Shown here piece after piece: positions 20,948 to 37,661 of a stretch of DNA of 64,000 bases. The notes under the pieces are model-generated. The model was not told the origin of the DNA. It did not search any database and was given only the letters and a program-made list of their open reading frames with translations. The translations under genes and the position numbers were made by a program. The first letter of the stretch is position 1. Each line of letters begins with the position of its first letter. The DNA is from Fluviispira vulneris (GTDB lineage: Bacteria; Bdellovibrionota_B; Oligoflexia; Silvanigrellales; Silvanigrellaceae). The stretch lies in NCBI RefSeq assembly GCF_014281055.1, contig NZ_JACRSE010000003.1, positions 310,001 to 374,000 of the forward strand, in the 5' to 3' direction.

Positions 20948-22741
20948 TTGAGTTACATTCATGTTTCTCAAACTACAGAAAAATTAACTAAGCACGCTTT
21001 AATTTTATTATTTGCTGTGTTGAGTATTTCATGCTCAACAACATTTTTAGACTCAGATAAATTGACTCAAAAACAAAAACAAGATTTCAAAATGAATCTT
21101 GAAGAATTATTTAAGAACAAAATGAGTCAAGAAGATCTTGATATAGCAACCTCAACATATCAAGTGCTTTCAGCTTTTGAAGAAATAAAAGAAAATAAAT
21201 TCGAGTATGCAAATCGCATTTCAAAAGATTTATTATATACTAAAGGTTTATCAAATTCTATATATAAATTTGCATTCAAAGCTTATTCTATATCTTCAGT
21301 TCTTCTACTAAATGAAAAAGTAACGAATAAAAATATAATAAATGATATAGATTTTTTTTCTTTCCAAAATAATCAATGCGAAATTCTTTGTGATAGTTTT
21401 GGCTGGAAATCATTGGCGCGTGATGATGCTTCTTTGTTTACACCTGAAGGATATAAAGAAGAGATTTTATCAGATGATTTCTTTGCATTTGTTAATAAAC
21501 AAAAGCCTGAATGGATTTCAGGGTCAATTTACTTGGATCAACATACTGCTGCTTATAATAGTTATATAAAAAACTTAATCAAAAATGATAGTAGTTCAGG
21601 AAGTGAATTACACTTAGAGAAACCAGATGAATATTCAAACAAAGATAAAGAAGAAATCAATGCACTTTATTCATTTGTAAATGGTGAATTTACAAAATCT
21701 AAAACAATATTTATGAGTTTAGCGGAAAAGTCTGCAAATCCTCAAGAGAGAGCAATTTATTATTACTGGATTGGGCGCGCATATAGTGCAGAGAAGAAAA
21801 ATGAGGATGCGAGAAAGTATTTTGTAAAATCAGGAATAGAAAATCCTTTGAGTTTATACGATGCTTTATCAGGGCAAATGATAAAAAATCCTTCAGGGCG
21901 TTCTTCAACAAATGAACTTTCTCCTTTCCCAGACTCGTGGGAAAAAGAAATGGAAAAATGGGTGACTTATCCTACTATTATTTCTAATAATAGCATAATA
22001 AAAACTTTAAAATCTGCAATTATACTGGCTTCAAAAATAAAGATTGATAAAAATATATTGCGACTTGATGAGTATCAGGACTATATTGTAAAAAACGAAA
22101 ATATTGAAACTTTACTCTTAAAAGATGAAATCAATTGGCTAACTAAAAATTGGCTGAACGAATTTAAAAATTGGCCAAAACATGAAAAGCCTGACATTAT
22201 TGGTAATAATATAGCATGGCTTTTATATGTTACTGGTCAGAATGTACAATCAATTATGTTTGTTTCACAGATAAAAGACACACTGGATCCTTTTTCTGAT
22301 AATAATAATTTTTTATATTTTCTATTTTATCCAAGATTGTATAAAGAAGAAGTCACTTTTGCTATTAAACAATGTCCTATTGATCCCGATTTGGTGTATG
22401 CAGTACTAAGACAAGAAGTTTTTTATAACCAAAATACGGAAAGCAAAGATTCTATTTTAAGAAAAACTTGTTCGCTAAAAGCAAATCTTGCTAATTATAG
22501 AAATGGTATAGTAACTTCTTTATCGGGTTATCATGTAGGTGAAGAATTAACCAATGAGTGGATAAAATATAGAGCTAAAATAAATGATGATGCTGTTTTT
22601 ATGGAAACTATACCAGATGAAAAAGCTAAAGAATTTATTAAAGAAACTGTAAAAAATTATTATAATATTAAATGGATATATTTCAAAAAAAATTCCATAA
22701 GTGAATCTCTTATGAATTTGTTTTTTGCATTTGAAAGGTAA
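20948..22741 (+). CDS. degenerate soluble lytic transglycosylase-like envelope protein
   Basis: A 597-residue protein starting at TTG (20948), with an N-terminal hydrophobic stretch ending in LSISC (Cys29), which may be a non-canonical lipobox. The middle is helical and TPR-like, as in the Slt70 superhelix. The C-terminal part keeps Slt landmarks: YPRLYKEEVTFAIKQ, PDLVYAVLRQEVF with the catalytic-position Glu (about residue 490), and a final block with Trp, ND, FMETIPDE and the ending YYNIKW. The usual S-A-x-GLMQ-x-MPxTA stretch is missing, so peptidoglycan cleavage may be lost or altered. Membership rests on motif spacing. Confidence 0.65.
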   Translation: MSYIHVSQTTEKLTKHALILLFAVLSISCSTTFLDSDKLTQKQKQDFKMNLEELFKNKMSQEDLDIATSTYQVLSAFEEIKENKFEYANRISKDLLYTKGLSNSIYKFAFKAYSISSVLLLNEKVTNKNIINDIDFFSFQNNQCEILCDSFGWKSLARDDASLFTPEGYKEEILSDDFFAFVNKQKPEWISGSIYLDQHTAAYNSYIKNLIKNDSSSGSELHLEKPDEYSNKDKEEINALYSFVNGEFTKSKTIFMSLAEKSANPQERAIYYYWIGRAYSAEKKNEDARKYFVKSGIENPLSLYDALSGQMIKNPSGRSSTNELSPFPDSWEKEMEKWVTYPTIISNNSIIKTLKSAIILASKIKIDKNILRLDEYQDYIVKNENIETLLLKDEINWLTKNWLNEFKNWPKHEKPDIIGNNIAWLLYVTGQNVQSIMFVSQIKDTLDPFSDNNNFLYFLFYPRLYKEEVTFAIKQCPIDPDLVYAVLRQEVFYNQNTESKDSILRKTCSLKANLANYRNGIVTSLSGYHVGEELTNEWIKYRAKINDDAVFMETIPDEKAKEFIKETVKNYYNIKWIYFKKNSISESLMNLFFAFER

Positions 22742-22745
22742 TTTT

Positions 22746-23072
22746 ATGGCTTGGGCATATTTAGTGCTTGCTGGAATTTTTGAAGTGGTATGGGCAATAA
22801 ATTTAAAAGAAGTAGATGGAATATCTACACTTAAGCCGCTATTAATTACTTTAATTGGGATGATTATAAGTTTTAGTTTTCTTTCATTAGCATTAAAAAA
22901 AATACCAATGGGCACAGCATATGCAATATGGACAGGTATAGGCGCTCTTGGGGTTGCTATTTATGGGGTTGTTTTTATAGGGGAATCTGCAAATTTATTA
23001 AGAGTATTGAGTATAATTATTTTGGTATTGGGAATATTGGGGCTCAAAATTTTTACTCCTCAAAAAAATTAG
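22746..23072 (+). CDS. SMR transporter subunit, Gdx/SugE type (first of pair)
   Basis: A small multidrug resistance-family protein of 108 residues with four hydrophobic helices. MAWAYLVLAGIFEVVWAI contains the membrane-embedded Glu essential for proton coupling, and GTAYAIWTGIGALGVAIYG is the Gdx/SugE-type signature that characterises guanidinium exporters. The ATG at 22746 has AAAGG upstream; the longer frame from 22725 overlaps the preceding gene. The following paralogue makes this a heterodimer-type pair. Confidence 0.85.
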   Translation: MAWAYLVLAGIFEVVWAINLKEVDGISTLKPLLITLIGMIISFSFLSLALKKIPMGTAYAIWTGIGALGVAIYGVVFIGESANLLRVLSIIILVLGILGLKIFTPQKN

Positions 23073-23113
23073 TTCAGGCAATTTTTAAAAATTTATAATG
23101 AGAGGATAAAAAT

Positions 23114-23428
23114 ATGGCTTGGGTATACTTAATAATTGCAGGTTTATTTGAAGTGGTTTGGGCTGTAGCTTTAAAAAATGTTTCTGGTTTTAGTAACATT
23201 AAAGCTTTACTGCTGACAATTATTGGAATGATAATCAGTTTTGGCTTTCTCGGATTAGCTTTAAAAGAACTTCCAATGGGAACTGCTTATGCAATTTGGA
23301 CTGGAATTGGAGCTGTTGGGGTTGCTATTTATGGGATTATTTTCTATTCCGAAACTCTAAATTTCAAAAGAATATTTTGTTTAATGTTAGTATTACTTGG
23401 AATATTTGGTCTTAAGGTTTTTAGCTAA
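23114..23428 (+). CDS. SMR transporter subunit, Gdx/SugE type (second of pair)
   Basis: A paralogue of the gene just upstream, 104 residues, with the same embedded Glu (FEVVWAVALKNVSG) and GTAYAIWTGIGAVGVAIYG. Pairing of two SMR genes usually gives antiparallel heterodimers such as EbrAB or YkkCD. Because both subunits carry the Gdx signature, guanidinium or small cationic metabolites are the likely cargo. The stop is 5 nt from the convergent MFS gene. Confidence 0.85.
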   Translation: MAWVYLIIAGLFEVVWAVALKNVSGFSNIKALLLTIIGMIISFGFLGLALKELPMGTAYAIWTGIGAVGVAIYGIIFYSETLNFKRIFCLMLVLLGIFGLKVFS

Positions 23429-23433
23429 TTCAG

Positions 23434-24636
23434 CTATTTTAAATAATAATCTTTAGCTTTTTCATAAATTCTTTTTTGATAAACAAATAATATTAATATA
23501 ATAATTATAGAACAAAAAAAACTTAAAATAATGAGCATGGCAAGCGATGAAAAATATTTCTCTAATAAATAGACGACACCCCCTGCAAGTGGAGCTGAGA
23601 TAAGGAGAATAGATGTGTTTGCTCCTAAAATATTTCCAAGTTTTTCAGCAGGAATAAGTCTCACTCTTTCGATTCGAAAAAATATTCCAAATAAAGAACT
23701 GCCTGTTATTAGCAAACCAAAAGCAAACGAAAAAAATATTATCCCTAAATCAGATGCTATAAGAATTGCACTCAGAAAAAGACTGATTGCTCCCATATAA
23801 GCAAAGAAAATTTTATTTTTATTCTGCATAATTTTAAGAATACAGAAAGCAAGTAAAAGGGAAATAATACCTCCTAGAACATTTGGCAATGTTGAGAGAG
23901 ATTCACTTGTTTGATAATGACTTCTCATAATTGGAATGAGCAGGGTTTGGAAAACTCCAAAAAATAAATTTAAGAGAATTCCTGCTAAAGTGATCAATAA
24001 AAAATATTTATTTGTGAAATGAAATTTAAAGCCAGTTAAATCTATTAATTTATTAGATAATCTTTTCAAATCTGCTTCTAAGTTCCTAATTCTTATTGTT
24101 TTAATATTTATAATAAATGTTACTATATAAATAAAAATAATTATGAAAATTGAGTTTTTGTTGTCTAGAATTGCAAGAGAAGCTCCTATAAGCATAGGCC
24201 CTAAAAGACGAGCAGCAGGTTCAAATAACTGCGATTTCGTTTGGAAGTTTATCATTTGGTTGTTATTTAAAATACGACTTGCGGTAGTTTCATAAAAGAC
24301 CATGAGAATGCCAGAGCAGACAGTTATAATCGGTGAAACAAGCCAAATATAAGGATAACTGTAAAAAATATACCATACAAACAATAATAAAATTCTTGAT
24401 GATTCAAGTGATCTTATAATCCACAGACAATTTTTTGAATCTGCAAGATTGCCAAAAAAAGGGATGAGCAAAAGTCTTGGCAAAAAGTCAAACATATAAG
24501 CAAGGCCTGCTAAAGCTAAATTCCCATTAGATATACTAAAAATAAACAGGGGTAAATAAAAGCCCTTTGCATAATCACCAATCAGGCTCACAGTTCTTAA
24601 ACTGGAGAATGAAATTAAGCTTTGCATATTTATCAT
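23434..24636 (-). CDS. MFS transporter next to the ATP-grasp enzyme
   Basis: A 400-residue polytopic protein with about 12 hydrophobic helices and the loop 2-3 motif GNLADSKN of the major facilitator superfamily (a variant of GxLaDrxGrr). It is most like the MFS_3-type single-polypeptide exporters. It lies 58 nt downstream of the ATP-grasp gene in the same direction and probably exports that enzyme's product, by analogy with dipeptide or amino-acid conjugate loci. An alternative start is the ATG at 24627. The exact cargo is unknown. Confidence 0.75.
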   Translation of the reverse strand: MINMQSLISFSSLRTVSLIGDYAKGFYLPLFIFSISNGNLALAGLAYMFDFLPRLLLIPFFGNLADSKNCLWIIRSLESSRILLLFVWYIFYSYPYIWLVSPIITVCSGILMVFYETTASRILNNNQMINFQTKSQLFEPAARLLGPMLIGASLAILDNKNSIFIIIFIYIVTFIINIKTIRIRNLEADLKRLSNKLIDLTGFKFHFTNKYFLLITLAGILLNLFFGVFQTLLIPIMRSHYQTSESLSTLPNVLGGIISLLLAFCILKIMQNKNKIFFAYMGAISLFLSAILIASDLGIIFFSFAFGLLITGSSLFGIFFRIERVRLIPAEKLGNILGANTSILLISAPLAGGVVYLLEKYFSSLAMLIILSFFCSIIIILILFVYQKRIYEKAKDYYLK

Positions 24637-24694
24637 TAACTTTACTCTGTTGCTTATGAATTAAAATAAGTCTACAAATTATATTGGACTATGC

Positions 24695-25960
24695 TTACTT
24701 ATGATAAATGATATTATAGATCTCCCAATAACAATCTTTTGCAGCTTCTTCGGAATGAGATTTAATAGTAAGATAAGCAAATGCGTCGTACCATTTTTGC
24801 GGATGGTTTAACTTTTCACCTTCAGGAACTTGCAATTGAATTTGACAGTTTGGTGGTAAGTTTAATTGACTTGAAGCGATGAGACCCTTTTTAGGTAATA
24901 ATCGTGCTATCAATGTGATTTCATTTTCATCGATATTAGGTAACAAAGGTGGATTTTTTATTTGCAGTATTTCTGCAATTAAGAATTTTTCTGGAGAATA
25001 TGTGAGAGTCTCTGTAAACATAATCATCACTTGCCCGCCGCCTATGCGACAAGCGATTTCGTTTATGAGATAGTTATTATTTCTCTTCCAAATTTCGGCA
25101 TGGAAGGCAAAACAATGCTGACTATTCCCCAATGCGTGCAATGATTTTTGGGTGATTTCCATAAGAGCTATATATTCATCTGTATTCCTTTTAACGCATA
25201 TACTGCCAGATAAAATATTCGTCGCTGTCTTAGGATCCCATGCAAGATGGGGTTTGTGACCTAGATAGCGGCTCGCAAGGGAGAAAATGATCTTGCCATC
25301 CTTAACAAAACCGTCGACATGAAACATTTCTGTGCCAATATATTCTTCAGCTATAAGGTTGAGATCTTCATCCCAATCGAGATCATTTTTAAGTGAGTCA
25401 AGATAATTTACGATATCATTTTCACAATTGAGAACTTTAAAACCTATGCCTGCTGCTTTGCATCTGGGTTTTACTATGAATGGAAAGCCTAACTCATAGC
25501 TTGCTTGTAAAAGACAAGTGGCACTTTGCACGGGTCGATATTTTGCTACTGGAATTTCCTTGTCTTTGAGCTTCTGTTTCATGTGAATTTTATCGCGATA
25601 ATTAAATATGCTTGGATAATTAAAACTTTTGTTATTATTATTTAAGCAACTGCGAGAGACGCGCAAGAGATCAAATTCTCTCAATGCAATGACATAGGCC
25701 GATGGATTTTCTTTTAAGAAAATATTTGTCTTGAATTCGACAAGTGGGTTCGAATAGAAGTTTTCAAATTTATGGATTTTTTTAAGTTTTAATTTTAAAC
25801 TAAGTGGAATAAATTCATAACATTCTTGACTGGTAAAGAGTGTTACGGCAAAATTCGATGGAATGCTTTCTAGAATTTGTGGCAGAGTTTTTGCAATCAT
25901 TTGAGGGAAATAAGTAGATTCTACCAGCAGAACTTGCATTTTTTCTTGATCTGAATTCAT
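24695..25960 (-). CDS. ATP-grasp carboxylate-amine ligase
   Basis: A 421-residue enzyme with the ATP-grasp fold: an N-terminal Rossmann-like domain, the start of the ATP-binding domain (YRDKIHMKQKLKDKEIPVA), a nucleotide-contact strand FIVKPRCKAAGIGFKVL, FHVDGFV, and the metal-binding end HAEIWKRNNNYLINEIACRIGGG with Glu, Asn and Glu ligands. The family joins a carboxylate, via acyl phosphate, to an amine or thiol. It resembles BacD/carnosine-synthase-type ligases more than peptide-modifying MdnB/C. AGGA precedes the ATG. It is divergent from the peptide cluster, so its product might be part of that cluster; unproven. Confidence 0.85.
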   Translation of the reverse strand: MNSDQEKMQVLLVESTYFPQMIAKTLPQILESIPSNFAVTLFTSQECYEFIPLSLKLKLKKIHKFENFYSNPLVEFKTNIFLKENPSAYVIALREFDLLRVSRSCLNNNNKSFNYPSIFNYRDKIHMKQKLKDKEIPVAKYRPVQSATCLLQASYELGFPFIVKPRCKAAGIGFKVLNCENDIVNYLDSLKNDLDWDEDLNLIAEEYIGTEMFHVDGFVKDGKIIFSLASRYLGHKPHLAWDPKTATNILSGSICVKRNTDEYIALMEITQKSLHALGNSQHCFAFHAEIWKRNNNYLINEIACRIGGGQVMIMFTETLTYSPEKFLIAEILQIKNPPLLPNIDENEITLIARLLPKKGLIASSQLNLPPNCQIQLQVPEGEKLNHPQKWYDAFAYLTIKSHSEEAAKDCYWEIYNIIYHK

Positions 25961-26211
25961 AATTTTTTCCTATATGCGGAGTAGGTCTTTAAAAAAAACT
26001 ACGTATAATTAATTCATAAAAATTATCTATATTAAAAAAGGAAATAATTCAAGTTTATAGTGATTTGTTGAAAGTAAGAATCAAAAAATGTATTGGATAA
26101 ATTAGAAGTGTATTTTTTTTAAATTAAAAGGGTATTGTAATTCTTTATTGAAGTTTGCGATTATGTGGTTATGGTATTAATTTATGTTTAAATATAATTT
26201 TAAAAAAAAAT
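25961..26211. other. divergent intergenic region without a gene
   Basis: Very A/T-rich DNA between the ATP-grasp gene and the candidate peptide cluster. It should contain the minus-strand promoter of the ATP-grasp/MFS pair. I see no ORF with a ribosome site, tRNA or strong repeat in this stretch; the plus-strand promoter and palindrome follow it. Confidence 0.6.
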
Positions 26212-26240
26212 TTGACAAAATTAAGAATTTAATTAATAAT
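26212..26240 (+). promoter_or_regulatory. sigma70-type promoter of the peptide cluster
   Basis: A perfect -35 TTGACA (26212-26217) is followed, after 17 nt, by AATAAT (26235-26240), one mismatch from TATAAT. Transcription would start near 26247, about 48 nt before the small peptide gene. Among the places I checked this is the best promoter in the window. Confidence 0.75.
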
Positions 26241-26246
26241 ATATTT

Positions 26247-26258
26247 ACTACCGGTAGT
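26247..26258. promoter_or_regulatory. 12-bp palindrome at the expected start site
   Basis: ACTACCGGTAGT is a perfect dyad without a spacer, positioned 6 nt after the -10 hexamer. A loop-less palindrome at +1 suits a dimeric repressor operator better than an RNA hairpin. No regulator gene is adjacent, so the protein that would bind is unknown. Confidence 0.5.
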
Positions 26259-26294
26259 TTTTTATAACCCATTAAGTTTTTTTTAGGAGTTTCA

Positions 26295-26444
26295 ATGAAA
26301 GATTTTGAAAGCAAAGAATGCCAAGCGTACATTAATAAAAATGCAATCAATTCTGATTTTGATACAACAATTGAATTCAGTGATATCCAATTAGCAGAAA
26401 TCGAAGTTTCTGACGACTTGTTACTCGCAGTTCATCGTTCTTAA
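26295..26444 (+). CDS. candidate RiPP precursor peptide (49 residues)
   Basis: A short gene with AGGAG (26285-26289) 5 nt before the ATG and a strong promoter upstream. The peptide is acidic (11 Asp/Glu, 4 Lys/Arg), has one Cys (residue 9), no signal peptide and no GG cleavage motif. Two similar blocks, IEFSDIQLA (26-34) and IEVSDDLLLA (36-45), occur in tandem, and SDDLLLAV recalls the end of many RiPP leaders. After that only HRS (47-49) remains. It sits first in the operon, separated by a stem-loop from two oxygenases and an E1-like enzyme. The precursor role is inferred from context and size. Confidence 0.65.
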   Translation: MKDFESKECQAYINKNAINSDFDTTIEFSDIQLAEIEVSDDLLLAVHRS

Positions 26445-26452
26445 ATTAAAAA

Positions 26453-26481
26453 CTCCCTAGCTATACGCAAGTGCTAGGGAG
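26453..26481 (+). promoter_or_regulatory. 9-bp stem-loop between peptide and enzyme genes
   Basis: CTCCCTAGC (26453-26461) and GCTAGGGAG (26473-26481) pair perfectly around an 11-nt loop. On the plus strand it is followed by A-rich sequence, not T's, so it is not a classical terminator for the peptide mRNA. It could stabilise or process it. On the minus strand the stem is followed by TTTTTAATTTAA, so it could stop antisense transcription. Such a barrier commonly lets a precursor be made in excess over its enzymes. Confidence 0.7.
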
Positions 26482-26509
26482 GCTAAAATAATAAAAAAAG
26501 AATAAAAAT

Positions 26510-27442
26510 ATGACTATAAATAACGGTGAATATTTTAATATTAATCAGATCTCAAAAAAAGAGTTTGAAAATATTTTCTTTGATGAACATCTTCCCCTGC
26601 TATTAAATGGTTTAAATATGGAAATGCCTGCTTATAGAAAATGGACATTTAATTTTTTCAAAGAGAATATGGGTCATTTTCTAATCCCTGTAGGTGATGA
26701 CTTAAAAAATCCTGCTGCCATTTCAAGAAAAATGTCTATTCGGAATTATATTACACAGCTTAAAGAAGATAAAGATTGCCCCTATATGGTGGGTTGGAGC
26801 TACCAAAGAGAATGCCCCACTCTCGACAATGATTTTACTTTGCCAGAGTTACATCCAGATGATTTTATCCATGGTTTGCCAAGACATCTTAACTATAGAC
26901 GTAGTTGGATTTTTTTTGGCAAAGAATCAATTGAGAGTGATTTGCATATAGATTCTTTTGCAGCAAGTGCATGGATAATAATGATCCATGGGCAGAAAAC
27001 TTTAAGAACATTTTCTCCAGTTCATAGGCATTTAGTAAAAATGGGTACATCACTTTTCGATGAGGAGAATATCAGGAAGATAAAAAATCAGGGTGTTGAA
27101 ATTATCGAATTTAAATTAATACCAGGCACTATAATGTATTTACCTGGCGGATGGGTGCACCAGATTAGAAATGACAATGACACCATTATGGTAACAGGGG
27201 CTTTTACAGCAAAAAGCCATGTCTTCCAATTTTACCCTTCTTACCAAGAAACTATTTCAAAAGATATTAATGATAGCGAAGAGCATTACCTCTCTTATAT
27301 AAAAAATGAGTTTATGAATATTGAAAAATTACCCAAGGAATCAATTCAATATATTAAAGAAGATATATTGAGAACAGAAAGGCGGATAGAAATTATTCAA
27401 GATAAAATGAAATTATATAAGAGTCTATTAAATAAAAATTAG
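26510..27442 (+). CDS. JmjC/cupin-8 Fe(II)/2-oxoglutarate oxygenase, copy 1
   Basis: A 310-residue cytoplasmic protein of the cupin-like (JmjC, Cupin_8) family. The iron triad is visible as H146-x-D148 (DLHIDS) and H217 (GGWVHQI), with K163 (GQKTLRTFSP) at the 2-oxoglutarate position. Such enzymes hydroxylate side chains; ribosomal oxygenases of this type modify Arg or His (YcfD, MINA53). A basic/acidic helical C-terminus follows the cupin core. It is the first enzyme after the peptide gene. The hydroxylase fold is well supported; the peptide as substrate is inferred. Confidence 0.85.
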   Translation: MTINNGEYFNINQISKKEFENIFFDEHLPLLLNGLNMEMPAYRKWTFNFFKENMGHFLIPVGDDLKNPAAISRKMSIRNYITQLKEDKDCPYMVGWSYQRECPTLDNDFTLPELHPDDFIHGLPRHLNYRRSWIFFGKESIESDLHIDSFAASAWIIMIHGQKTLRTFSPVHRHLVKMGTSLFDEENIRKIKNQGVEIIEFKLIPGTIMYLPGGWVHQIRNDNDTIMVTGAFTAKSHVFQFYPSYQETISKDINDSEEHYLSYIKNEFMNIEKLPKESIQYIKEDILRTERRIEIIQDKMKLYKSLLNKN

Positions 27443-27453
27443 AGGTTTATATA

Positions 27454-28836
27454 GTGAAGAATATAAATTGCTTGAAAATTGCTGTAGATGCTTTTCCATA
27501 CAAGGAAAGTATACATCAAATTTGCGACTACAGTGGAGAGCAAATATATAAAAAACAAGCACTCACCCTTTTTAAAGAGCAAAATAGAAGCATTTATAAT
27601 TTAGCAGCAAAAAGTTATTTATTAAGCAATAATTATAAAAATATCGAAATAGAAATCAAGGATAATTTATATTGGCAGAATGGGGAACAGGTATTTGCAG
27701 AGGATTTTGCCCGTTCAATAAAATTTCTTTGTAGGGATAAAGGAAATCGCTTTCGGACTCTTTTTTCAGATGTGGAAAATTTTAAAGAATATTCAATATA
27801 CATTTCAAATGATATTGGAATTCACTGCCCTGATAAATATACTTTGTGCATTAATCTGAAATATCCTAATGTATATATGCGAAATAATTTATCTTTAATC
27901 TCTACATCGCCATTACACATCTCTAATTCTCACTTGTCTGCAGGGCCTTATTTTTTGAGCTCTTTAGAAGAGAATAAGTTTTTGTTAAAGAAGAATAAGC
28001 ATTACTCATTAGACGAAGTTGCAAATTCCTTTAATGAAATAGAATTTATAAAAATAAAAGAAGATAAGTTTGCTGATAATTTTCAGTGCGGTAATATTGA
28101 TGTTAGTTGTGACACATGTTTAGACTATAATTATTATAAATTAGCAAGAAATTCGATTAATTTTAAAGAAATATCTTCAAAATTAATAATGCTACTGTCT
28201 CCTTGGAAAAAATTCAAAGAAATACCAGAAGCAGTAAAATATATTATTATTAACGCAATAAATAGGAAAGAACTCAGTGATAGGTTTGATGGCATACTTA
28301 AAGAATCATTTTCTTACCTCGATTTATATGATTATAGTTATAAAGAAAAAATAATTAAAAAGATAGAACCTTTGTGCGAACCTTTTAATTTGACAATCGC
28401 TTATGAAGATTTTTATCCCAATAAAGAAATAGTAAAACTTATTGCGAATCAACTTAAAGCATATAACATTAACTTGTTACCAGAAGTGGATGAGTATGGC
28501 AAATGGGACTCTTGCACCCATTTGCGTTTTGAAATTCGTTGGTCAATGCGTTCTACTCCTTTATTATTTTATAAATCAGATTTGAGCCGCGGCTTTATAA
28601 CAGATCAGGAATTTGAAGAAGCCAGAAAGTATTATTCTTATATACTACAAAATAATAAGGAAGAGGAGAACGTAATATTTTATAAAAAGCTAGATCAAAT
28701 ATTGATAAGAAATGCTGTGTATATTCCATTATTATCTATGCCTTCTGGCTATTTTATAAGACCATATATTGTAAATAGTTCACTATTTGATCAGGGAACT
28801 TTTATTCATTATTTGAATAATATTGAAAGCGTATAA
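27454..28836 (+). CDS. signal-less SBP_bac_5-type peptide-binding protein
   Basis: A 460-residue protein resembling family-5 extracellular solute-binding proteins (OppA, DppA, SgrR C-terminus). Residues 73-86 (YWQNGEQVFAEDFA) match the WxdGxpvtAeDvv signature. It has no signal peptide or lipobox (the N-terminus MKNINCLKIAVDAF is soluble), so it should stay in the cytoplasm. There it may bind the precursor or the product. GTG start with AGAGG upstream; it is 11 nt after the first oxygenase. SgrR-like proteins use such a domain fused to a HTH; no HTH is visible here. Confidence 0.78.
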   Translation: MKNINCLKIAVDAFPYKESIHQICDYSGEQIYKKQALTLFKEQNRSIYNLAAKSYLLSNNYKNIEIEIKDNLYWQNGEQVFAEDFARSIKFLCRDKGNRFRTLFSDVENFKEYSIYISNDIGIHCPDKYTLCINLKYPNVYMRNNLSLISTSPLHISNSHLSAGPYFLSSLEENKFLLKKNKHYSLDEVANSFNEIEFIKIKEDKFADNFQCGNIDVSCDTCLDYNYYKLARNSINFKEISSKLIMLLSPWKKFKEIPEAVKYIIINAINRKELSDRFDGILKESFSYLDLYDYSYKEKIIKKIEPLCEPFNLTIAYEDFYPNKEIVKLIANQLKAYNINLLPEVDEYGKWDSCTHLRFEIRWSMRSTPLLFYKSDLSRGFITDQEFEEARKYYSYILQNNKEEENVIFYKKLDQILIRNAVYIPLLSMPSGYFIRPYIVNSSLFDQGTFIHYLNNIESV

Positions 28837-28839
28837 TTT

Positions 28840-29808
28840 ATGTATTACCGATTGAATGGCACAATTATTTACTTGAGTGAAAATATTATAGTATATGGAC
28901 ATAAGTCTTTGTCTATTAAAGCGAGAGTTAATTTTTCAGAAATTAAACATTTTTTGGAACAAATAAAAGAAGGATTAAATGCGGATAAAATAGATGTCTA
29001 TGTAAATTGCAGCATAGTAGGGAACATAGTAAAAAAAATGTTTGAAATGTCACTTATTATTCCATACAAATTAGCATATCTAAATACCCCACTGGAAAGA
29101 TCATATGATTTCCTTTGTCACCACTTATCAGGCAAACAAACAGATATTGATTTTAATCATAATATTAACATTACAATTTTTGGTTGTGGCGGAGTAGGGG
29201 CGAATATCGCTTTAAATTTACTTGTAATGGGATTTTCAAACTTTACTTTCGTAGATTACGATACAGTTGAGGCGAGTAATCTAAATAGGCAATTTCCATT
29301 TGTCCCAGAAGATATTGGAAAGAATAAAGCCCAGGCCCTAAAAGATAATTTATTAAAAAGAAATCCATCTGCTAAAATTATGTGTTTAAATTTATTTATA
29401 AATTCTACACAAATACTCATTGATAATCTCTCCACAAGTGATCTTATAGTATCAGCGATAGATAGCCCACCAATTAAGTCAGCAATTTATTCGACAGAAT
29501 ATGCATTAGAAAAAAATATTCCTATTATATTTGGAGCTGCTGGTTATGATACTATAAAAGTTGGACCACTTTTAAAAAGTAAAGGTGCAATGAAAAATTA
29601 TCTTTCATATCTTAATTCTGTAAGTATTATAAATGCTACCCCAATTAGAGGTTCAATTCCCTCCACAAATTCTTTATTAACATCTATTTTGAGTAACGAG
29701 ATATTTAATTTATTCTATGATGAAAAAAAAATGTTATTTCCAAACAAGAAATTAATAATGAATCATTTTTCACTCGAAATAGTTGAAGAGAATGATTATG
29801 AAAATTGA
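28840..29808 (+). CDS. RRE-like domain fused to ThiF/E1 adenylating enzyme
   Basis: A 322-residue protein. Residues about 1-85 have the strand and helix pattern of a PqqD-like winged helix (VNFSEIKHFLEQIKEGL, MFEMSLII), as in RiPP recognition elements. The C-terminal part is an E1/ThiF fold: nucleotide loop GCGGVGAN (115-122), D139-x-D141, NLNRQF (147-152) with the adenylation Arg, IGKNKAQAL and SAIDSP (205-210). The zinc-binding CxxC pairs of MoeB/ThiF are not seen. MccB and PaaA (microcin C, pantocin) share this layout and adenylate a peptide C-terminus or side chain. It starts 3 nt after the previous stop. Confidence 0.82.
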   Translation: MYYRLNGTIIYLSENIIVYGHKSLSIKARVNFSEIKHFLEQIKEGLNADKIDVYVNCSIVGNIVKKMFEMSLIIPYKLAYLNTPLERSYDFLCHHLSGKQTDIDFNHNINITIFGCGGVGANIALNLLVMGFSNFTFVDYDTVEASNLNRQFPFVPEDIGKNKAQALKDNLLKRNPSAKIMCLNLFINSTQILIDNLSTSDLIVSAIDSPPIKSAIYSTEYALEKNIPIIFGAAGYDTIKVGPLLKSKGAMKNYLSYLNSVSIINATPIRGSIPSTNSLLTSILSNEIFNLFYDEKKMLFPNKKLIMNHFSLEIVEENDYEN

Positions 29809-30202
29809 AAAAAATAAAATTATAATACAATTCTATCTAAGCAGATTTTTATTAATAAATAATTATATTCGCCAACTTATACATGCTAAATATCCTAATT
29901 TAACTGCTAAAATTTGCTTAAAGTTTTTAGGAAAAGTAGTTGTCAAACAAAAAAAAGAATGGGGTGAAGTTAAGTATATTACAAATATAGTACATGAAGC
30001 TTTACATATTGATTTATTTCTGCTTCAGTTTTTAGTTCCCACGGTTCATTCTAATAACTATACGAAAGGCTCTTTTAAAAAATTGCAACATTCCACAATT
30101 GGCTGTTTTCACTCGACATTTTTTTATATTGATTCGTTTTTTTTAGGAAAAATTATTTTCAATAGGAGTAAAATTTCAAAGAAGAATTTAGTCATAAATT
30201 AA
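29798..30202 (+). CDS. small cluster protein of unknown function
   Basis: 134 residues if started at ATG 29798, which overlaps the end of the ThiF-like gene by 11 nt; TTG 29783 and ATG 29792 are alternatives. The sequence is basic and aromatic, with HEALHIDLF, then CFHSTFFYID, and no signal peptide. The His/Cys pattern made me consider a transglutaminase-like (B2) leader peptidase, but the Cys-His-Asp order of that family is not seen. It lies inside the operon, so a maturation or immunity role is possible. Not recognised. Confidence 0.55.
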   Translation: MKIEKNKIIIQFYLSRFLLINNYIRQLIHAKYPNLTAKICLKFLGKVVVKQKKEWGEVKYITNIVHEALHIDLFLLQFLVPTVHSNNYTKGSFKKLQHSTIGCFHSTFFYIDSFFLGKIIFNRSKISKKNLVIN

Positions 30203-30205
30203 ATA

Positions 30206-31036
30206 ATGGTAAAACTTATGAAAAATAATTTAATTGAATACGATTCCAAAATTGATGACATAAAATGCTTTTCCACTGAAGAATTGCAAAATTCATGTAT
30301 TGTCATTAGAAATTACTGCAAAAATTGGAAGCTCTATCACAACAATATGTTTGAATATATTGCAAACACATATGGGCATGATCGAATTAACGTTGAAACA
30401 AACATCAATGGAATTATAAATGAGACTATAAATATAAAAGAATATATAAATAGAATTGCATTAGGTATTTCAACTATAGGCAATTGGTCTTGGCAGCCAT
30501 TTTATAAGTATCCTGAACTTCACGACCAATATACATTACCAGAGAAGATGGAAGACATATTTTTCCGAAATTCACTTGTCTGTAAACTTGTTATTTCACC
30601 TTGGTTGCTGATGTCGAGTAAAGACACAAAAACAAATATTCACCAAGATATGTTTCGTGTTAATGGAATAGTCGGTCAATTAGAAGGAGAAAAGGAGTTT
30701 GTATTAGTTGAGCCATCTTTTAAACTTGAAGAAGGTAAATATTACGCTGAAGAAGAACTGCATTCATTATCTATAACATATTATAAAGTAATCCTTAAAA
30801 AAGGTGATTTTCTTTATTTCCCTACTCAGTGGTGGCACCAAGCAAAAACTTTGAAAAATTCTGTCACGTTTATTCATAGTACTGTGAATAATGCAAATAT
30901 GAAAAATTTTCTAGATGAATTGATTATTATGATGCCTAATTTTATCCAACGTGTTCAAAACGGCGCAAAACAAATGTCTTTATTTGGCAAAAATATTAAT
31001 TGGGTTTGCAATGGATTTAAAAGAATTATTGAATAA
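30206..31036 (+). CDS. JmjC/cupin-8 Fe(II)/2-oxoglutarate oxygenase, copy 2
   Basis: A 276-residue protein and distant paralogue of copy 1. Iron ligands H146-x-D148 (NIHQDMF) and H211 (WWHQAKT) and the 2-oxoglutarate Lys at 163 (GEKEFVLVEP) fall at almost the same residue numbers as in copy 1, supporting common descent. Its N-terminus differs strongly. It starts 3 nt after the previous stop without a clear Shine-Dalgarno, so translation is probably coupled. Two distinct oxygenases in one operon suggest two hydroxylation sites, or successive oxidations; this is inference. Confidence 0.84.
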   Translation: MVKLMKNNLIEYDSKIDDIKCFSTEELQNSCIVIRNYCKNWKLYHNNMFEYIANTYGHDRINVETNINGIINETINIKEYINRIALGISTIGNWSWQPFYKYPELHDQYTLPEKMEDIFFRNSLVCKLVISPWLLMSSKDTKTNIHQDMFRVNGIVGQLEGEKEFVLVEPSFKLEEGKYYAEEELHSLSITYYKVILKKGDFLYFPTQWWHQAKTLKNSVTFIHSTVNNANMKNFLDELIIMMPNFIQRVQNGAKQMSLFGKNINWVCNGFKRIIE

Positions 31037-31048
31037 AAGGAACATGAA

Positions 31049-32269
31049 GTGTTTATAAATGAAGTTAAAATTAGGGTAAAACTCTTTAAATCTCAGCCCT
31101 ACCTTTTGTTTGCACTCAGTGGAATTCTCGCTACATTTGGCAATGGATTAATATATATAACAATGTCTTGGTACGCTTATCAGAAAAATAATTCTATCGG
31201 CAGCTTGGCTCTTCTCATGTTTTATATTTGGATGCCAAGTATTATCTTTGGTCCTTTTTTTGGTGTTTGTGCTGATAGGTACAATAAAAAATATTTATTA
31301 ATTTTATCTAATGTAGTAAGAGGAATCGCTGTATTTGTATTCGCATTTTTTATGTTGAATGGTTTAGAACCAAACATTTATTACCTTGCATCTGTGCTTG
31401 GCTTTTTTATTTCCTTTTACATGCCAGCGGCAATCCCATTCGTAAAAGAAATTGTACCAGAAAATAAACTCGTTGAAGCGAATGCAACTGTAGATATGCT
31501 TTACGAGTTTGGCACAATTATTGGGATGGGAGTAAGCGGTGTCCTTATTTATTACTTAAACACTATTGGTACTCTTGCTCTTGGTGGGGCTTTTTTTATT
31601 ATTTCAGGTTTGTTTAATTACTTAATGAAATATAATCCTATAAATAATTTTAATAAATTCCAAACAAAAAAACAAACATTCTTAAATGACTATATTGATT
31701 CTTTAAAATATATTGCAAGGAATCCTTCCCTTATAGGTGTCTATCTTACACAAATGATTATTATGGTCCTGATCATGACAATCCCCATTTTGCTTGTCCC
31801 CTTTACACAAGTAGTTCTTAAAGGTGATACCGTCCTATTCGCCCGCCTAGAAGCTTTAATTTCGTTAGGTATTTTTGTTGGAGGATTCTTTTCTCCTATT
31901 TTATGCAAAAAAATAAGTGCTAAATATACCCTCATGTTTCTTACAATATTACTTTCAATCACCTTATATATATTCTCAATTAATGATAATATTCTTATAA
32001 GCTATATTGTTTATTTTGGCATAGGGGTTGGACTTTCTAGTTGGGCTGTTGTTATTAGTCAAGCACAACTCTTAACAAGTCCTGACTTTCAAGGTCGATT
32101 GCAAGCGACTTTCTATAGTTTATCAGGTATTGGAGTTTTGCTTCTTTATGTTTTAGTAAATTATAAAGGAAACCTCATTAGTGTCCAAAATTTTTATCTT
32201 GTAGAAAGTATCATTGCTGCTTGTGCGTTTATTTTTGTTTTTAAAATAAAAAATTGCGAGTTAAAATAG
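31049..32269 (+). CDS. MFS exporter of the peptide cluster
   Basis: A 406-residue polytopic protein with about 12 helices. The loop motif FFGVCADRYNKKYLL is the MFS GxxaDRxxRk signature, and MYLGxxxS-like spacing suggests the MFS_3/EntS-type exporters. GTG start with AAGG 8 nt upstream and 12 nt after copy 2. Its place at the end of the operon suggests it exports the finished peptide, which may also give self-protection. No ABC exporter or dedicated protease is present. Confidence 0.8.
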   Translation: MFINEVKIRVKLFKSQPYLLFALSGILATFGNGLIYITMSWYAYQKNNSIGSLALLMFYIWMPSIIFGPFFGVCADRYNKKYLLILSNVVRGIAVFVFAFFMLNGLEPNIYYLASVLGFFISFYMPAAIPFVKEIVPENKLVEANATVDMLYEFGTIIGMGVSGVLIYYLNTIGTLALGGAFFIISGLFNYLMKYNPINNFNKFQTKKQTFLNDYIDSLKYIARNPSLIGVYLTQMIIMVLIMTIPILLVPFTQVVLKGDTVLFARLEALISLGIFVGGFFSPILCKKISAKYTLMFLTILLSITLYIFSINDNILISYIVYFGIGVGLSSWAVVISQAQLLTSPDFQGRLQATFYSLSGIGVLLLYVLVNYKGNLISVQNFYLVESIIAACAFIFVFKIKNCELK

Positions 32270-32347
32270 TGTTAAAAGGGTTGGATATTTTGTTAAAGCT
32301 TAAAAATAAAATAAATGTATAAGGGTTTCTGAAATAATTTTAAAACA

Positions 32348-34111
32348 CTATTTAAAATTATCAATTGCAAAAGGATATTTTTCAGTTTCAAGCAATTTCT
32401 TAGCGATGATTTTTATTTTATCATCATGATTTGCTTTTAAATTGTAAATATTTTGATTGATCCGCGCTTTTGCGTTTCGAATAATTAATTTTGCCATGGT
32501 GAGTTCAGCTTCATTTTTCTCTGGGCCACCATGCTTTTCTAAGACGGAATTTATTCTCGATAAAACGGAAGAAATTACATATGTGTCGATTGCGATATCT
32601 GCGAGGCGTGACAATTGCAATTGCTCATCAACCAGTTTGTGTCCGTAAGTGCGAATGAGTTTAGAAGCAGAAGTTGTCAGCGCATGTGTCGCTGTTGAGA
32701 GTCTTTCGCATTCTTTTTCGAGGGCTGGATGAAAACCTTCTAGCTTTTCTGTTAGCACACTCTTTTTAACTTCACTGAAGGCAAATTCAGATAAAAAGCC
32801 TATTTTTCCTATGGCGCTGTTCAAGAAGTCAACACTTTTGATATTTTGTAATGACTGTAGTTCTTTGCCAAGGCGTTGGTATTGAGAAGCAGGCTCTTTC
32901 AATCCTGTCATTGCAATAAAGAGTCTTAATATTTCGTTTGTTCCTTCAAATATAAGTCCAATACGTCCATCTCTGAGTTTTCTTTCAATGCCATATTCAA
33001 CCATATAACCATTGCCACCGTGAATTTGCATGGCAGTGTTGATTGTTGCCCAACTTGCTTCTGTGACAAATACTTTACAAATTGCAGCCTCGATGCTGTA
33101 ATCCGTATCGCCGGAATCGACTAAATTGGTTGCGAAATAAGTTGCAGATTCAGAAGTATATATATGCATTGCCATTTCGCTTAACATGCTTTGGATAAGG
33201 CCAAAGTCAGAAATACTGTGGCCAAATGCTTTTCTATTTTTTGTGTAAGTTATGCACTCGTCCATTGCGGATTTCATAGCGCCCAAAGCACCGCCCGCTA
33301 AGCCCATGCGACCTTGGTTTAAAATTCCCATAGCAATTTTAAAACCGTCGCCCGATTTTCCTAAGATATTTTCTGCAGGAACTTTTACATCTTTAAAAAA
33401 GACTTCAACAGTGGATGATGCTTTAATACCAAGTTTAAGTTCTTCTGATCCATGGGTGACTCCGCCCATGTCTCTTGTTACGATAAATGCGGTGATTTTA
33501 TCTTCGCCATTTATTTCTTCCTTTGCAAATACGGTGAAAAAATCTGCGAAACCACCATTTGTTATCCATAATTTTGAGCCATTAATTATATAATGGTCGC
33601 CTTGTTTAACTGCTCTGGTTTTAATTCCTGCGGCATCGCTTCCTGCAGTTGGTTCTGTTAAAGCAAAGGAAGCGATCATTTCTCCTGTTGCAAGCTTAGG
33701 CATATATTTTGCCTTTTGTTTCTCATTGCCATATAAATAAAGTCCTTTTAAACCAATCGAGCTGTGTGCACCCGCGGTTAAGGTAACAGATGCGTCGTGT
33801 TTATTTAAAAGTTCAAGCGTTCTAGTATAAAATGTTTGGGTAAATTCGCTTCCACCAAAAGCTTCAGGGATAATAAGTCCAAAGAGACCCATTTCTTTCA
33901 TTCCTTGAATAATTTCTTTTGGTAATTTTTTTTCTTGGTCGAATTTTAAACTATCAACATTTTGTTTCATCCAATCATTAATAGAATTGGCCATCAAAGT
34001 ATAATCATTTTCTCTATTGGTATTAAAAAAGGGATAATGATGCAGAGATTTTTCTGATATATGCCCATTAAATATGCTTTTCATGAAACTAAATTTCGTA
34101 TTACCAGACAT
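32348..34111 (-). CDS. acyl-CoA dehydrogenase, long VLCAD/ACAD9-like type
   Basis: FAD enzyme for the first step of fatty-acid beta-oxidation. Its 587 residues exceed the usual 380-400 because of a C-terminal helical extension, as in very-long-chain enzymes. Landmarks: SFALTEPTAGSDAAGIKT, the FAD/substrate segment WITNGGFADFFTVFAK, and the catalytic region LRDGRIGLIFEGTNEILRLF with the base Glu. GAGGAGG precedes the ATG. It is divergent from the second acyl-CoA dehydrogenase, from which it shares an intergenic region with candidate operators. Confidence 0.9.
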   Translation of the reverse strand: MSGNTKFSFMKSIFNGHISEKSLHHYPFFNTNRENDYTLMANSINDWMKQNVDSLKFDQEKKLPKEIIQGMKEMGLFGLIIPEAFGGSEFTQTFYTRTLELLNKHDASVTLTAGAHSSIGLKGLYLYGNEKQKAKYMPKLATGEMIASFALTEPTAGSDAAGIKTRAVKQGDHYIINGSKLWITNGGFADFFTVFAKEEINGEDKITAFIVTRDMGGVTHGSEELKLGIKASSTVEVFFKDVKVPAENILGKSGDGFKIAMGILNQGRMGLAGGALGAMKSAMDECITYTKNRKAFGHSISDFGLIQSMLSEMAMHIYTSESATYFATNLVDSGDTDYSIEAAICKVFVTEASWATINTAMQIHGGNGYMVEYGIERKLRDGRIGLIFEGTNEILRLFIAMTGLKEPASQYQRLGKELQSLQNIKSVDFLNSAIGKIGFLSEFAFSEVKKSVLTEKLEGFHPALEKECERLSTATHALTTSASKLIRTYGHKLVDEQLQLSRLADIAIDTYVISSVLSRINSVLEKHGGPEKNEAELTMAKLIIRNAKARINQNIYNLKANHDDKIKIIAKKLLETEKYPFAIDNFK

Positions 34112-34190
34112 AAAACCTCCTCGTTTTTACTATTTTCAATCTGGATAAGATAACTTTACAATAGTAAATTAGCTGAATTGAATGAAGAGA

Positions 34191-34246
34191 GCAAACTGTT
34201 TGAAATGCAAACTGTATTTACTGTCAATGTCACTTATAGTGTATTG
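34191..34246. promoter_or_regulatory. candidate operators between divergent beta-oxidation genes
   Basis: Two copies of GCAAACTGT (34191-34199 and 34207-34215, period 16 nt) are followed by an imperfect dyad CAAT-gt-CACT-tat-AGTG-t-ATTG (34225-34246). Both lie between the two acyl-CoA dehydrogenase genes, which suggests shared control by a FadR- or TetR-type regulator. Regulator unknown. Confidence 0.45.
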
Positions 34247-34328
34247 CAACCATTGCTAGTTTTAAAATTTAAACATATTTTGAAGTATAGAGAATTTTAT
34301 TTTTATTTATTTTTAGGAGAAAAAAATT

Positions 34329-35471
34329 ATGGCTATGTTTGAACTTAATGAAACCCAAAGGCAATTGTTTGAAATGGCGAAAGATTTTTCGAATAAAGAA
34401 GTATGGCCTAAAGCGCGTGAATTGGACGAAACAGCAAAATTCCCAATGGATTTATTAAAGAAGACACATGAACTTGGAATGTTAAATGCATTTGTGCCTG
34501 AAGAAGTCGGTGGGCTTGGTTTGGGCACATTTGATCATTGTTTAATTTCGGAAGCTTTGGCCATGGGGTGTGCTGGTTTCTGTACAGCGGCTTTGGCGAA
34601 TGATTTGGCCGCAGTTCCTGTTATTCTTTCTGAAAATAAGCATGCATGGAAAGATTTTTTGGCACCTATGGTTGAAGAATGCCAAATGGCTTCCTACTGC
34701 GTAACGGAGCCAGGTGCAGGAAGTGATGTTGCAGGAATTAAGACGACAGCAAAAAAATCGGGCGATAAATATATTATCAATGGATCAAAAATGTGGATCA
34801 CAAATGCAAACTATGCATCGTGGTTTTTTGTGCTTGCTAAAACTGACTCCTCTAAGGGGCACAAAGGAATGTCAGGTTTTATTGTTTCAGCAAAAACACC
34901 TGGCATTACGATTGGTAGAAAAGAAGATAATATGGGTCAACGCTGCAGCGACACACGGGGCGTGACCTTTGATAACGTTGAGGTGCCTGCTAAATATTTA
35001 CTTGGTAAAGAAGGTGACGGGTTTAAACTCGCCATGGGGGCTTTTGATAGGACACGCCCTGCCGTTGCTGCAGAAGCTTTAGGCTTAAGCCAGCGGGCTA
35101 TGATGTGTGCAATTGATTATGCAAAACAAAGACAGGCATTTGGTAAAACTATATCTGAAAATCAAGGTGTTAGCTTTATGATTGCAGAAATGGCGCGGGA
35201 TATTGAAGCTTCGCGTTTACTCGTATGGAAAGCTGCGGATGAGGTGGATGCAGGGAGAAAAAATACATATTATGCTTCGATAGCTAAGATGTTTGCAGCT
35301 GATGCCTGTATGAGAATTACCACAAATGCGGTTCAGATATTTGGTGGGTATGGATATAATAGAGAATATCCTGTTGAAATGCTTATGCGGGATGCAAAAA
35401 TATTTCAAATATATGAAGGAACATCCCAAATTCAAAGAATGATTGTTGGAAGAATGCTGCTAGACATCTAA
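34329..35471 (+). CDS. short/medium-chain acyl-CoA dehydrogenase
   Basis: A 380-residue flavoenzyme that introduces the alpha-beta double bond into acyl-CoA and passes electrons to ETF. MASYCVTEPGAGSDVAGIKT and MWITNANYASWFFVLAKT form the flavin-binding sheet, and MRDAKIFQIYEGTSQIQRMI holds the catalytic Glu. Length and motifs match MCAD/butyryl-CoA dehydrogenases. AGGAG (34316-34320) supports the ATG. It may act on shorter chains than the divergent neighbour. Confidence 0.92.
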   Translation: MAMFELNETQRQLFEMAKDFSNKEVWPKARELDETAKFPMDLLKKTHELGMLNAFVPEEVGGLGLGTFDHCLISEALAMGCAGFCTAALANDLAAVPVILSENKHAWKDFLAPMVEECQMASYCVTEPGAGSDVAGIKTTAKKSGDKYIINGSKMWITNANYASWFFVLAKTDSSKGHKGMSGFIVSAKTPGITIGRKEDNMGQRCSDTRGVTFDNVEVPAKYLLGKEGDGFKLAMGAFDRTRPAVAAEALGLSQRAMMCAIDYAKQRQAFGKTISENQGVSFMIAEMARDIEASRLLVWKAADEVDAGRKNTYYASIAKMFAADACMRITTNAVQIFGGYGYNREYPVEMLMRDAKIFQIYEGTSQIQRMIVGRMLLDI

Positions 35472-35562
35472 AGAATTCTTTAAATAAATGAAATGCTGTG
35501 TTAAGCAAACTGCGGAATGGTGTCTTCTTTTTGTGAATTTTTAGAAAGATTTGGTGTCAGAG

Positions 35563-36024
35563 ATGATAAAGGCTTCAGAAGCAAAAATTGGCATTGTTGT
35601 TGCAAGATTTAATGAGGTTATAACGTCTCGACTTGCTTCAGGTGCAAAAAATATTCTCATTCGGCGTGGCGTAAAACCTGAAAATATTATTGAAATTGAG
35701 GTACCAGGGGCATTTGAAACGCCATTTGCAGCTCAACTTTTAATAGATAATAAAAAAGTACACGGAGTTGTTGCTCTTGGAGCCGTGATTCGTGGATCAA
35801 CAGATCATTATGATTATGTTTGTTCATCCACATCTTCTGGTTTGATGAATGTTCAACTTTCTCGCTCAGTTCCAGTTTGTTTTGGCATACTTACGTGCGA
35901 TACAATGGAACAGGCAATCGATAGGGCGGGTGGAAAACTTGGCAACAAAGGCAGTGATGTTGCTGATTCGTTATTAGAAATGATCTTGCTCAGATCCTCA
36001 TTATTAGGAAATTTATCATTATGA
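35563..36024 (+). CDS. ribH: 6,7-dimethyl-8-ribityllumazine synthase
   Basis: Penultimate step of riboflavin synthesis: condenses the 5-amino-ribitylaminouracil with dihydroxybutanone phosphate. I use the ATG at 35563; GTG (35554) and TTG (35551) are in-frame alternatives. Landmarks: IGIVVARFNE, EVPGAFETPFAAQ, GVVALGAVIRGSTDHYDYVC (phosphate and catalytic His region), and FGILTCDTMEQAIDRAGGK. At about 153 residues it has the normal length. It overlaps nusB by 4 nt, a common ribH-nusB arrangement. Confidence 0.95.
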   Translation: MIKASEAKIGIVVARFNEVITSRLASGAKNILIRRGVKPENIIEIEVPGAFETPFAAQLLIDNKKVHGVVALGAVIRGSTDHYDYVCSSTSSGLMNVQLSRSVPVCFGILTCDTMEQAIDRAGGKLGNKGSDVADSLLEMILLRSSLLGNLSL

Positions 36025-36464
36025 TAGAAGGTGTAACTGGACTCAAACCAGCCGATTTTAAGCAAGTGAGAAGGTTTGCGGTTCAATTTGCTTATCAGCA
36101 AGATGTAAATCAACAATATGTTATGCAAAAAAGTGTTTTAGAACAGTTTATTAAACAATCTGAAGTGTCTGAGAATCAAAGAGCTTTTTTGCGTTCTTTA
36201 TTAGCGGCTGTATTTGAGAAAAGCAAAATAGTCGATGATTTAATCGAAAAAAATGCAAAAAATTGGAAAATTTCGCGCATTGCTCGAGTTGATTTAGCGG
36301 TTCTTAGAATTGCAACAGTTGAGCTTTTAGAGCGAACCGATACAGATATTGGAGTTGTTATTTCTGAAGCAGCTTCTATTGCGCAAGAATATGGCTCTTC
36401 AAACTCAGCTTCATTTGTAAACGGTATTCTCGATGCGATTGCTAAAACTGTACGTTCTGCTTGA
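36021..36464 (+). CDS. nusB: transcription antitermination factor NusB
   Basis: Binds boxA RNA with NusE (S10) to prevent premature termination in rRNA operons. 147 residues, all-helical; RRFAVQFAYQQD and the second-half segment IARVDLAVLRIATVELL then GVVISEAASIAQEYG followed by FVNGILDAIAK are canonical NusB. The start codon overlaps the ribH stop (ATGA), so the two are translationally coupled. Confidence 0.95.
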   Translation: MIEGVTGLKPADFKQVRRFAVQFAYQQDVNQQYVMQKSVLEQFIKQSEVSENQRAFLRSLLAAVFEKSKIVDDLIEKNAKNWKISRIARVDLAVLRIATVELLERTDTDIGVVISEAASIAQEYGSSNSASFVNGILDAIAKTVRSA

Positions 36465-36500
36465 TTGAATATTTATTAATCAAAAAGGCGAATAATTGAA

Positions 36501-37241: not shown

Positions 37242-37261
37242 TTTTATCATAGGTGATAAAT

Positions 37262-37654: not shown

Positions 37655-37661
37655 CTTTTTT

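Follow-up and report, generated by a model that had tools for sequence, protein, structure and literature searches.

We propose that the ThiF-like protein encoded at 28840–29808 on the plus strand of the Fluviispira vulneris DNA analyzed here (64,000 nucleotides, hereinafter the window) is probably a RiPP-maturing enzyme: its RRE-like N-terminal domain would bind a 49-residue precursor peptide, its E1-type domain would adenylate one of the carboxylates of this peptide, with Ser49 as the likeliest site, and the enzymes encoded alongside would act as its partners. This proposal draws on the computed domain architecture and catalytic residues of the protein, the RRE fold of its modeled N-terminus, the operon and single inserted cassette in which it is encoded, a recurring pairing of ThiF with a solute-binding protein (SBP), and the Arg-[Ser/Thr] ends of the associated precursors.

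An inserted cassette with a RiPP-like gene complement

The ThiF gene lies in an 8.9 kb segment of nine genes (23422–32333) that is absent from the same place in three relatives of the same genus. In one of these (G005), about 20 bp separate the flanks corresponding to 21101–23421 and 32334–38000 of the window, and in the other two (G002 and G006) the gap is 40–100 bp. Given the empty site in three relatives, the segment was thus gained or lost as a whole. Tandem genes for small multidrug-resistance-type transporters (22725–23072 and 23114–23428) mark its left border, and similar sequence is seen at the same border in relatives.

On the plus strand, the precursor gene is followed by genes for a JmjC/Cupin_8 oxygenase (26510–27442; iron site HID(146)...H(217) kept, with the JMJD6/JMJD5 hydroxylases as the nearest solved structures), an oligopeptide-binding SBP_bac_5 protein (27454–28836; Pfam E 6e-18) that ends 3 bp upstream of the ThiF gene, the ThiF itself, a 134-residue HExxH...H protein (29798–30202) overlapping the 3′ end of the ThiF gene, a second JmjC/Cupin_8 oxygenase (30206–31036; HQD(146)...H(211), nearest solved structure the MINA histidyl-hydroxylase) and an MFS exporter (31049–32269; Pfam MFS_1 E 6.5e-33). 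The gaps between these enzyme genes range from −11 to 12 bp. Divergently oriented on the minus strand, and likewise within the cassette, are genes identified by domain matches as an ATP-grasp ligase of the amino-acid/peptide ligase type (24695–25960) and a second MFS transporter (23434–24636). A short precursor and an exporter are hence encoded with the ThiF in one inserted cassette. The HExxH protein gives a weak match to TIGR04267, the aKG-HExxH-type peptide beta-hydroxylases (E 0.0036; 17.3 bits, under the cut-off of 40). Its third histidine is at +39 (HExxH-x34-H) as compared to +40 in the HExxH protein of Streptomyces hirsutus, an x34/35 spacing being common to the two; in that organism precursor, HExxH, ThiF and MFS genes occur together in this order. 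The SBP adjoining the ThiF has no signal sequence recognizable on reading its N-terminus, and from its sequence appears to be a transport-type peptide-binding protein retained inside the cell.

Within the cassette, no obvious leader protease was found and neither a YcaO nor an MccD/MccE/MccF-like gene was recognized. The genomes searched yielded no close homologue of the cassette, and the other genomes of the phylum examined yielded no relatives of the SBP or the first JmjC protein at the thresholds used. Viral contigs lacked relatives of the SBP, the JmjC protein and the ThiF of a second cluster in the same genome (see below), and the phage collection returned generic ThiF/MoeB proteins only.

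The precursor peptide and its signals

The precursor gene (26295–26444, plus strand) is preceded by an AGGAG Shine–Dalgarno sequence and encodes the 49-residue peptide MKDFESKECQAYINKNAINSDFDTTIEFSDIQLAEIEVSDDLLLAVHRS, which contains 11 Asp/Glu residues and ends in His-Arg-Ser; no convincing homologue was recovered from 55 relatives. Upstream of it is a promoter-like site (26212–26240; 11/12), and between it and the enzyme genes the plus strand carries an attenuator/terminator-like RNA hairpin (26453–26481) with an MFE of −17.1 kcal/mol (z −4.3; equaled in 0 of 200 shuffles). By reading, comparable inverted repeats are found 3′ of the precursors in the second cluster of this genome and in the Bacillota plasmid clusters described below. 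Just 3′ of a −10-like box lies a perfect palindrome, ACTACCGGTAGT (26247–26258), present as a single copy in the genome; it looks like an operator, and no regulator was recognized in the cassette.

An intact E1-type adenylation domain

The ThiF protein is 322 residues long, with an ATG start and an open reading frame, and comprises an RRE-like domain (residues 1–80) and an adenylation domain (about residues 100–310), of which residues 108–308 match Pfam ThiF with E 9.1e-34. A preliminary description of this DNA had taken GCGGVGAN, NLNRQ and SAIDSP to be intact and the zinc CxxC motifs to be missing; both observations hold, the motifs lying at residues 115, 147 and 205, respectively, and the only cysteines being residues 57, 93, 116 and 182, which form no CxxC. 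Upon alignment with 15 other ThiFs with long N-termini, every residue invariant across the 16 RRE-ThiFs is retained, including G115, G117, G120, D141, N147, R150, Q151, K163 and D208. The elements of an E1-type adenylation domain, i.e., GxGGxG (G115), the catalytic Arg and Lys (R150, K163) and the Mg-binding Asp (D208), are all present.

A sequence search of the PDB with this protein recovers MccB as the best match (62 bits) and PaaA further down (50 bits). The whole-protein model is of low confidence (pLDDT 62); used as a Foldseek query, it places MccB chains in all of the first 21 rows except for PaaA at rank 14, with E1s, TcdA and MoeB ranking behind these, while a full-length VIA comparison ties all E1-fold proteins and is uninformative as to the N-terminus.

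The RRE-like N-terminal domain

The N-terminus is predicted to form strands at residues 2–5, 8–13, 16–20 and 25–29 and helices at 33–44, 48–55 and 58–69; as strands followed by three helices is the order of an RRE, we read it as RRE-like. Residues 1–98 modeled alone with four relatives give a mean pLDDT of 63.5, i.e., moderate confidence, with the best helices at 70–78 and the remaining four models at 40–49. In VIA-align, this model matches ThcOx (Z 7.7), the PbtF RRE (8t19; 7.0), residues 1–85 of MccB (6.8) and the TbiB1 RRE (6.4), with further matches to TruD/LynD-type heterocyclases and McbB. All of rows 1–24 (Z 5.3–7.7) are RRE-bearing RiPP enzymes, with the sole exception of BmdC, a related NRPS oxidase. 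A profile comparison of this region with the 15 other RRE-ThiFs scores 19.7 over 81 collinear columns, whereas the best of 100 shuffles scored 15.3; one of 113 unrelated segments reached that score, over just 31 columns. Scanned against Pfam with E values of up to 10 allowed, this N-terminus showed no match to PqqD, a null result that is uninformative because the N-terminus of MccB itself likewise matches nothing.

Thus, the proposal of a strand-rich start, helices and a PqqD-type winged helix in the first ~85 residues is borne out at the level of the model, which predicts a winged-helix-like N-terminus and matches RREs, with MccB and also PaaA among the top structural matches; the late FEMSLII to which the preliminary description pointed covers the last part of helix 3 and the residues after it. 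We accept the RRE-like domain as supported, with modest confidence in the model.

Comparable ThiF–SBP clusters on Bacillota plasmids

Five plasmids of Bacillota, namely of L. plantarum (NZ_CP114875), L. garvieae (CP066002), S. aureus (CP127670), E. faecalis (LR962333) and L. lactis (NZ_CP053672), encode a zinc-less RRE-ThiF with an SBP-like protein directly downstream (split in L. lactis). Where intact, these SBP-like proteins have 392–438 residues and an N-terminus without a signal sequence. As in the window, a zinc-less RRE-ThiF thus stands beside a signal-less SBP-like protein and a tiny precursor led by a Shine–Dalgarno sequence. The order differs, with the SBP 3′ of the ThiF on the plasmids and 5′ of it in the window, as do the partner genes, the plasmids having PLP enzymes or large ORFs of no assigned function (by eye, M3-peptidase-like) as opposed to the JmjC, HExxH and ATP-grasp proteins of the window; the gene set on the plasmids is ThiF-SBP(-MFS), with precursors ending in RT in four of the five. 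In the SBP tree, the window protein groups with four of the Bacillota cluster SBPs (100/99) and apart from the host OppA proteins, which have signal sequences, albeit with long branches.

The precursors of these clusters, each upstream and with its own Shine–Dalgarno sequence, are MLVDEKETREMHRRTLF, MEIEEKESREMHRRT, MKVTKKTSREMVKRT, MNEEGKTTEMTFEDLFVEIISVERT and MEENDIITENIDFEEIFSDLEMRVRT. They are 15–26 residues long, three of them being only 15–17 residues with few internal acids. Four of the five end in Arg-Thr (that of L. plantarum ends in RTLF), as compared to Arg-Ser in the window; as background, ~1–2% of small ORFs led by a Shine–Dalgarno sequence have such an R-[S/T] end, and precursors beside zinc-bearing ThiFs have other C-termini. 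This common Arg-Ser/Thr terminus suggests that activation takes place at the C-terminal carboxylate.

Other ThiF loci were observed in the course of this survey. In Priestia koreensis, a zinc-bearing ThiF lies between two signal-less SBPs; on this plasmid (L043, 4190–4500) repeated copies of a 21-residue precursor (MKKIVVRKLATVTVPQLRPGT) are found between the two SBP genes, the second of which comes after a ThiF. A second cluster in the genome under study (L021; G000:C3:440000-459000, minus strand) codes for a zinc-bearing MccB-like ThiF (10195–11286), a 19-residue precursor with a Shine–Dalgarno sequence (MKFKVKKTPLSSAGMSNVG; about 11360–11420), an MFS protein on each flank and a protein of two domains, the C-terminal one being a cupin; its close relatives occur on plasmids of Salmonella and Pantoea, where the precursors end in LVG/AVG. 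Acinetobacter and Moraxella plasmids (L034, L039) carry a 63–66-residue ORF, two tandem ThiF genes and an ABC exporter, possibly representing another ThiF RiPP type.

Zinc cysteines and placement within the ThiF family

The preliminary description had assigned the enzyme to the peptide-modifying MccB/PaaA kind in part on account of its missing zinc cysteines. We reject that argument: both CxxC pairs are present in E. coli MccB but absent from the short housekeeping ThiFs of roughly 200 residues, fetched from many phyla, and also from a second housekeeping group taken to be TcdA-like. Zinc loss therefore cannot tell one kind from the other. The assignment itself stands on other grounds, namely the RRE-like N-terminus, the RiPP-like cluster and a plausible precursor.

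In the catalytic-domain tree, the window ThiF sits on a long branch. The five zinc-less Bacillota ThiFs fall together on one side of a branch (92/88), which it joins only weakly (50/23), and AU tests reject none of its candidate neighbors, including the short ThiFs (p 0.19 to 0.39). Genome-wide scans with the protein as a single query recovered no close relative and an alignment-based scan gave mostly short ThiFs; the ThiF matches in the relatives are other loci rather than the cassette ThiF. As for whether its closest relatives are housekeeping ThiF/MoeB proteins, the closest solved ones are MccB structures, but the tree is compatible with ThiF as well.

Proposed pathway and alternatives

RRE-ThiFs such as MccB, PaaA, EnfB, GrcB and IndF activate peptide carboxylates (PMC12250964; PMC12150305). 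In most cases the carboxylate lies at the C-terminus or close to it, and the enzymes diverge in what then reacts with the acyl-adenylate (PMC12150305; PMC12250964). By this precedent, we infer that the RRE (residues 1–80) would hold part of the 49-residue precursor while the E1-type domain, with Mg-ATP, would adenylate a carboxylate, most likely the C-terminal one of Ser49 in ...His-Arg-Ser. The acyl-adenylate might then be captured within the peptide, giving a ring, an ester/lactone or an amide, or leave the peptide nucleotidylated in the manner of microcin C. Both JmjC oxygenases, possibly along with the HExxH protein, would hydroxylate residues of the peptide. Peptide hydroxylation and cleavage have precedent among HExxH enzymes (PMC12636437), and a joint action of both types would fit, by analogy, biphenomycin biosynthesis, in which the JmjC protein BipG and the HExxH protein BipH act jointly as hydroxylases (PMC12707348). 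The ATP-grasp ligase may append an amino acid, the cytosolic SBP might hold the short product or substrate as a carrier or for self-protection, and the MFS proteins would export the product.

The core microcin C layout is MccB with an MFS exporter, as also seen in the second ThiF cluster of this genome. Hence, a sub-case of the above proposal is that the ThiF joins a nucleotide to the C-terminus, with an MFS pump and the cytosolic SBP as self-immunity. While MccB is the best solved match, we hold this to be unlikely: the precursor ends in His-Arg-Ser and lacks the C-terminal Asn that the succinimide route of MccB needs (PMC12250964), no MccD/MccE/MccF-like gene was recognized alongside it, and the two zinc CxxC pairs of MccB are missing. 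Alternatively, as PaaA acts on Glu-Glu in a precursor with a leader and a follower and its cluster includes a 2OG-Fe oxygenase (PMC12250964), the ThiF could activate Asp/Glu side chains in the acidic middle of the precursor, leaving two or three candidate oxygenases to finish the ring and the C-terminal part to serve as the follower. The 11 Asp/Glu residues would suit such a reaction, but what the precursors of the nearest comparable clusters have in common is their R-T/S end, not an acidic core, and the three of 15–17 residues have few internal acids, making this reading improbable.

ThiFs with RREs also exist as partner proteins: those associated with YcaO serve as docking domains (PMC12150305), and the RRE of PbtF is among the best structural matches. 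A non-catalytic or peptide-presenting ThiF that leaves all chemistry to the oxygenases is nevertheless very unlikely here, as its catalytic residues are all intact and the cassette has no recognizable YcaO. Least probable of all is a drifted housekeeping ThiF/MoeB, or a tRNA-modifying TcdA, lying in the cassette by chance. In its favor, the best NCBIfam score is to the ThiS-type ThiF (ThiF fam2; 105.6 bits, under the cut-off of 159), the short ThiFs are also zinc-less, and the tree allows grouping with them (AU p 0.19). Against it, the N-extension measures 114 residues as compared to about 30 in short ThiFs, which lack the RRE-like domain, other ThiF-fold genes are retained elsewhere in the genome, and the best tree places the protein outside the ThiF-fam2 clade (99/98). 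Moreover, the context is RiPP-like and, as the preliminary description had it, no ThiS/MoaD-like carrier was recognized by Pfam/NCBIfam among the scanned cassette proteins.

Returning to activation of the C-terminal carboxylate, we tentatively raise the possibility, doubtful as yet, that the Bacillota plasmids and this unrelated chromosome share an undescribed RiPP class, in which an RRE-ThiF would activate the Arg-Ser/Thr end and a cytosolic SBP derived from ABC importers would be the product carrier or immunity factor; the hydroxyl of the terminal Ser/Thr could even close a beta-lactone. The recurring ThiF–SBP pair and the Arg-Ser/Thr end offer a substrate site that can be tested directly as well as a new handle for genome mining, and they prompt the question why a peptide producer would keep a peptide-binding protein of the importer type in its cytoplasm.

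Comparison with known systems

The literature examined holds five characterized ThiF-like RiPP chemistries, none with a peptide-binding protein as partner, and our search of it found no ThiF paired with a solute-binding protein or JmjC; a mining survey of lactic-acid-bacterial ThiF RiPPs fell outside its scope and may already list the Bacillota clusters, whose novelty is accordingly provisional. We place the window ThiF, as a new member, with the known MccB/PaaA/IndF kind and, with the same proviso, regard the pairing with a cytosolic SBP, the Arg-Ser/Thr end and the two JmjC enzymes as novel.

MccB, the microcin C7 synthetase of E. coli (PDB 3h5n, 6om4), shares with the window ThiF an RRE, an E1-type adenylation domain with the same catalytic residues, a small precursor gene upstream and an MFS exporter. 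However, overall identity is about 21%, the window ThiF lacks the zinc CxxC pairs, the precursor is a 49-residue peptide rather than a heptapeptide ending in Asn, and oxygenases and a binding protein are encoded alongside. PaaA of pantocin A (PDB 5ff5) is likewise an RRE-ThiF whose gene neighbors code for a short precursor, an exporter and a 2OG-Fe oxygenase, but the window has two JmjC enzymes, a binding protein and an ATP-grasp ligase, its precursor has no Glu-Glu-Asn core, and its exporters are MFS proteins whereas PaaC is an EamA protein. The cyclizing RRE-ThiFs IndF, EnfB and GrcB also activate a C-terminal or near-C-terminal carboxylate, but have other precursors and partner genes, and no cytosolic peptide-binding protein is reported for them (PMC12150305; PMC12250964). 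Finally, the biphenomycin cluster resembles that of the window in combining JmjC and HExxH oxygenases and an MFS exporter with one precursor, but relies on an MNIO together with a B12 radical SAM enzyme and has no ThiF (PMC12707348).
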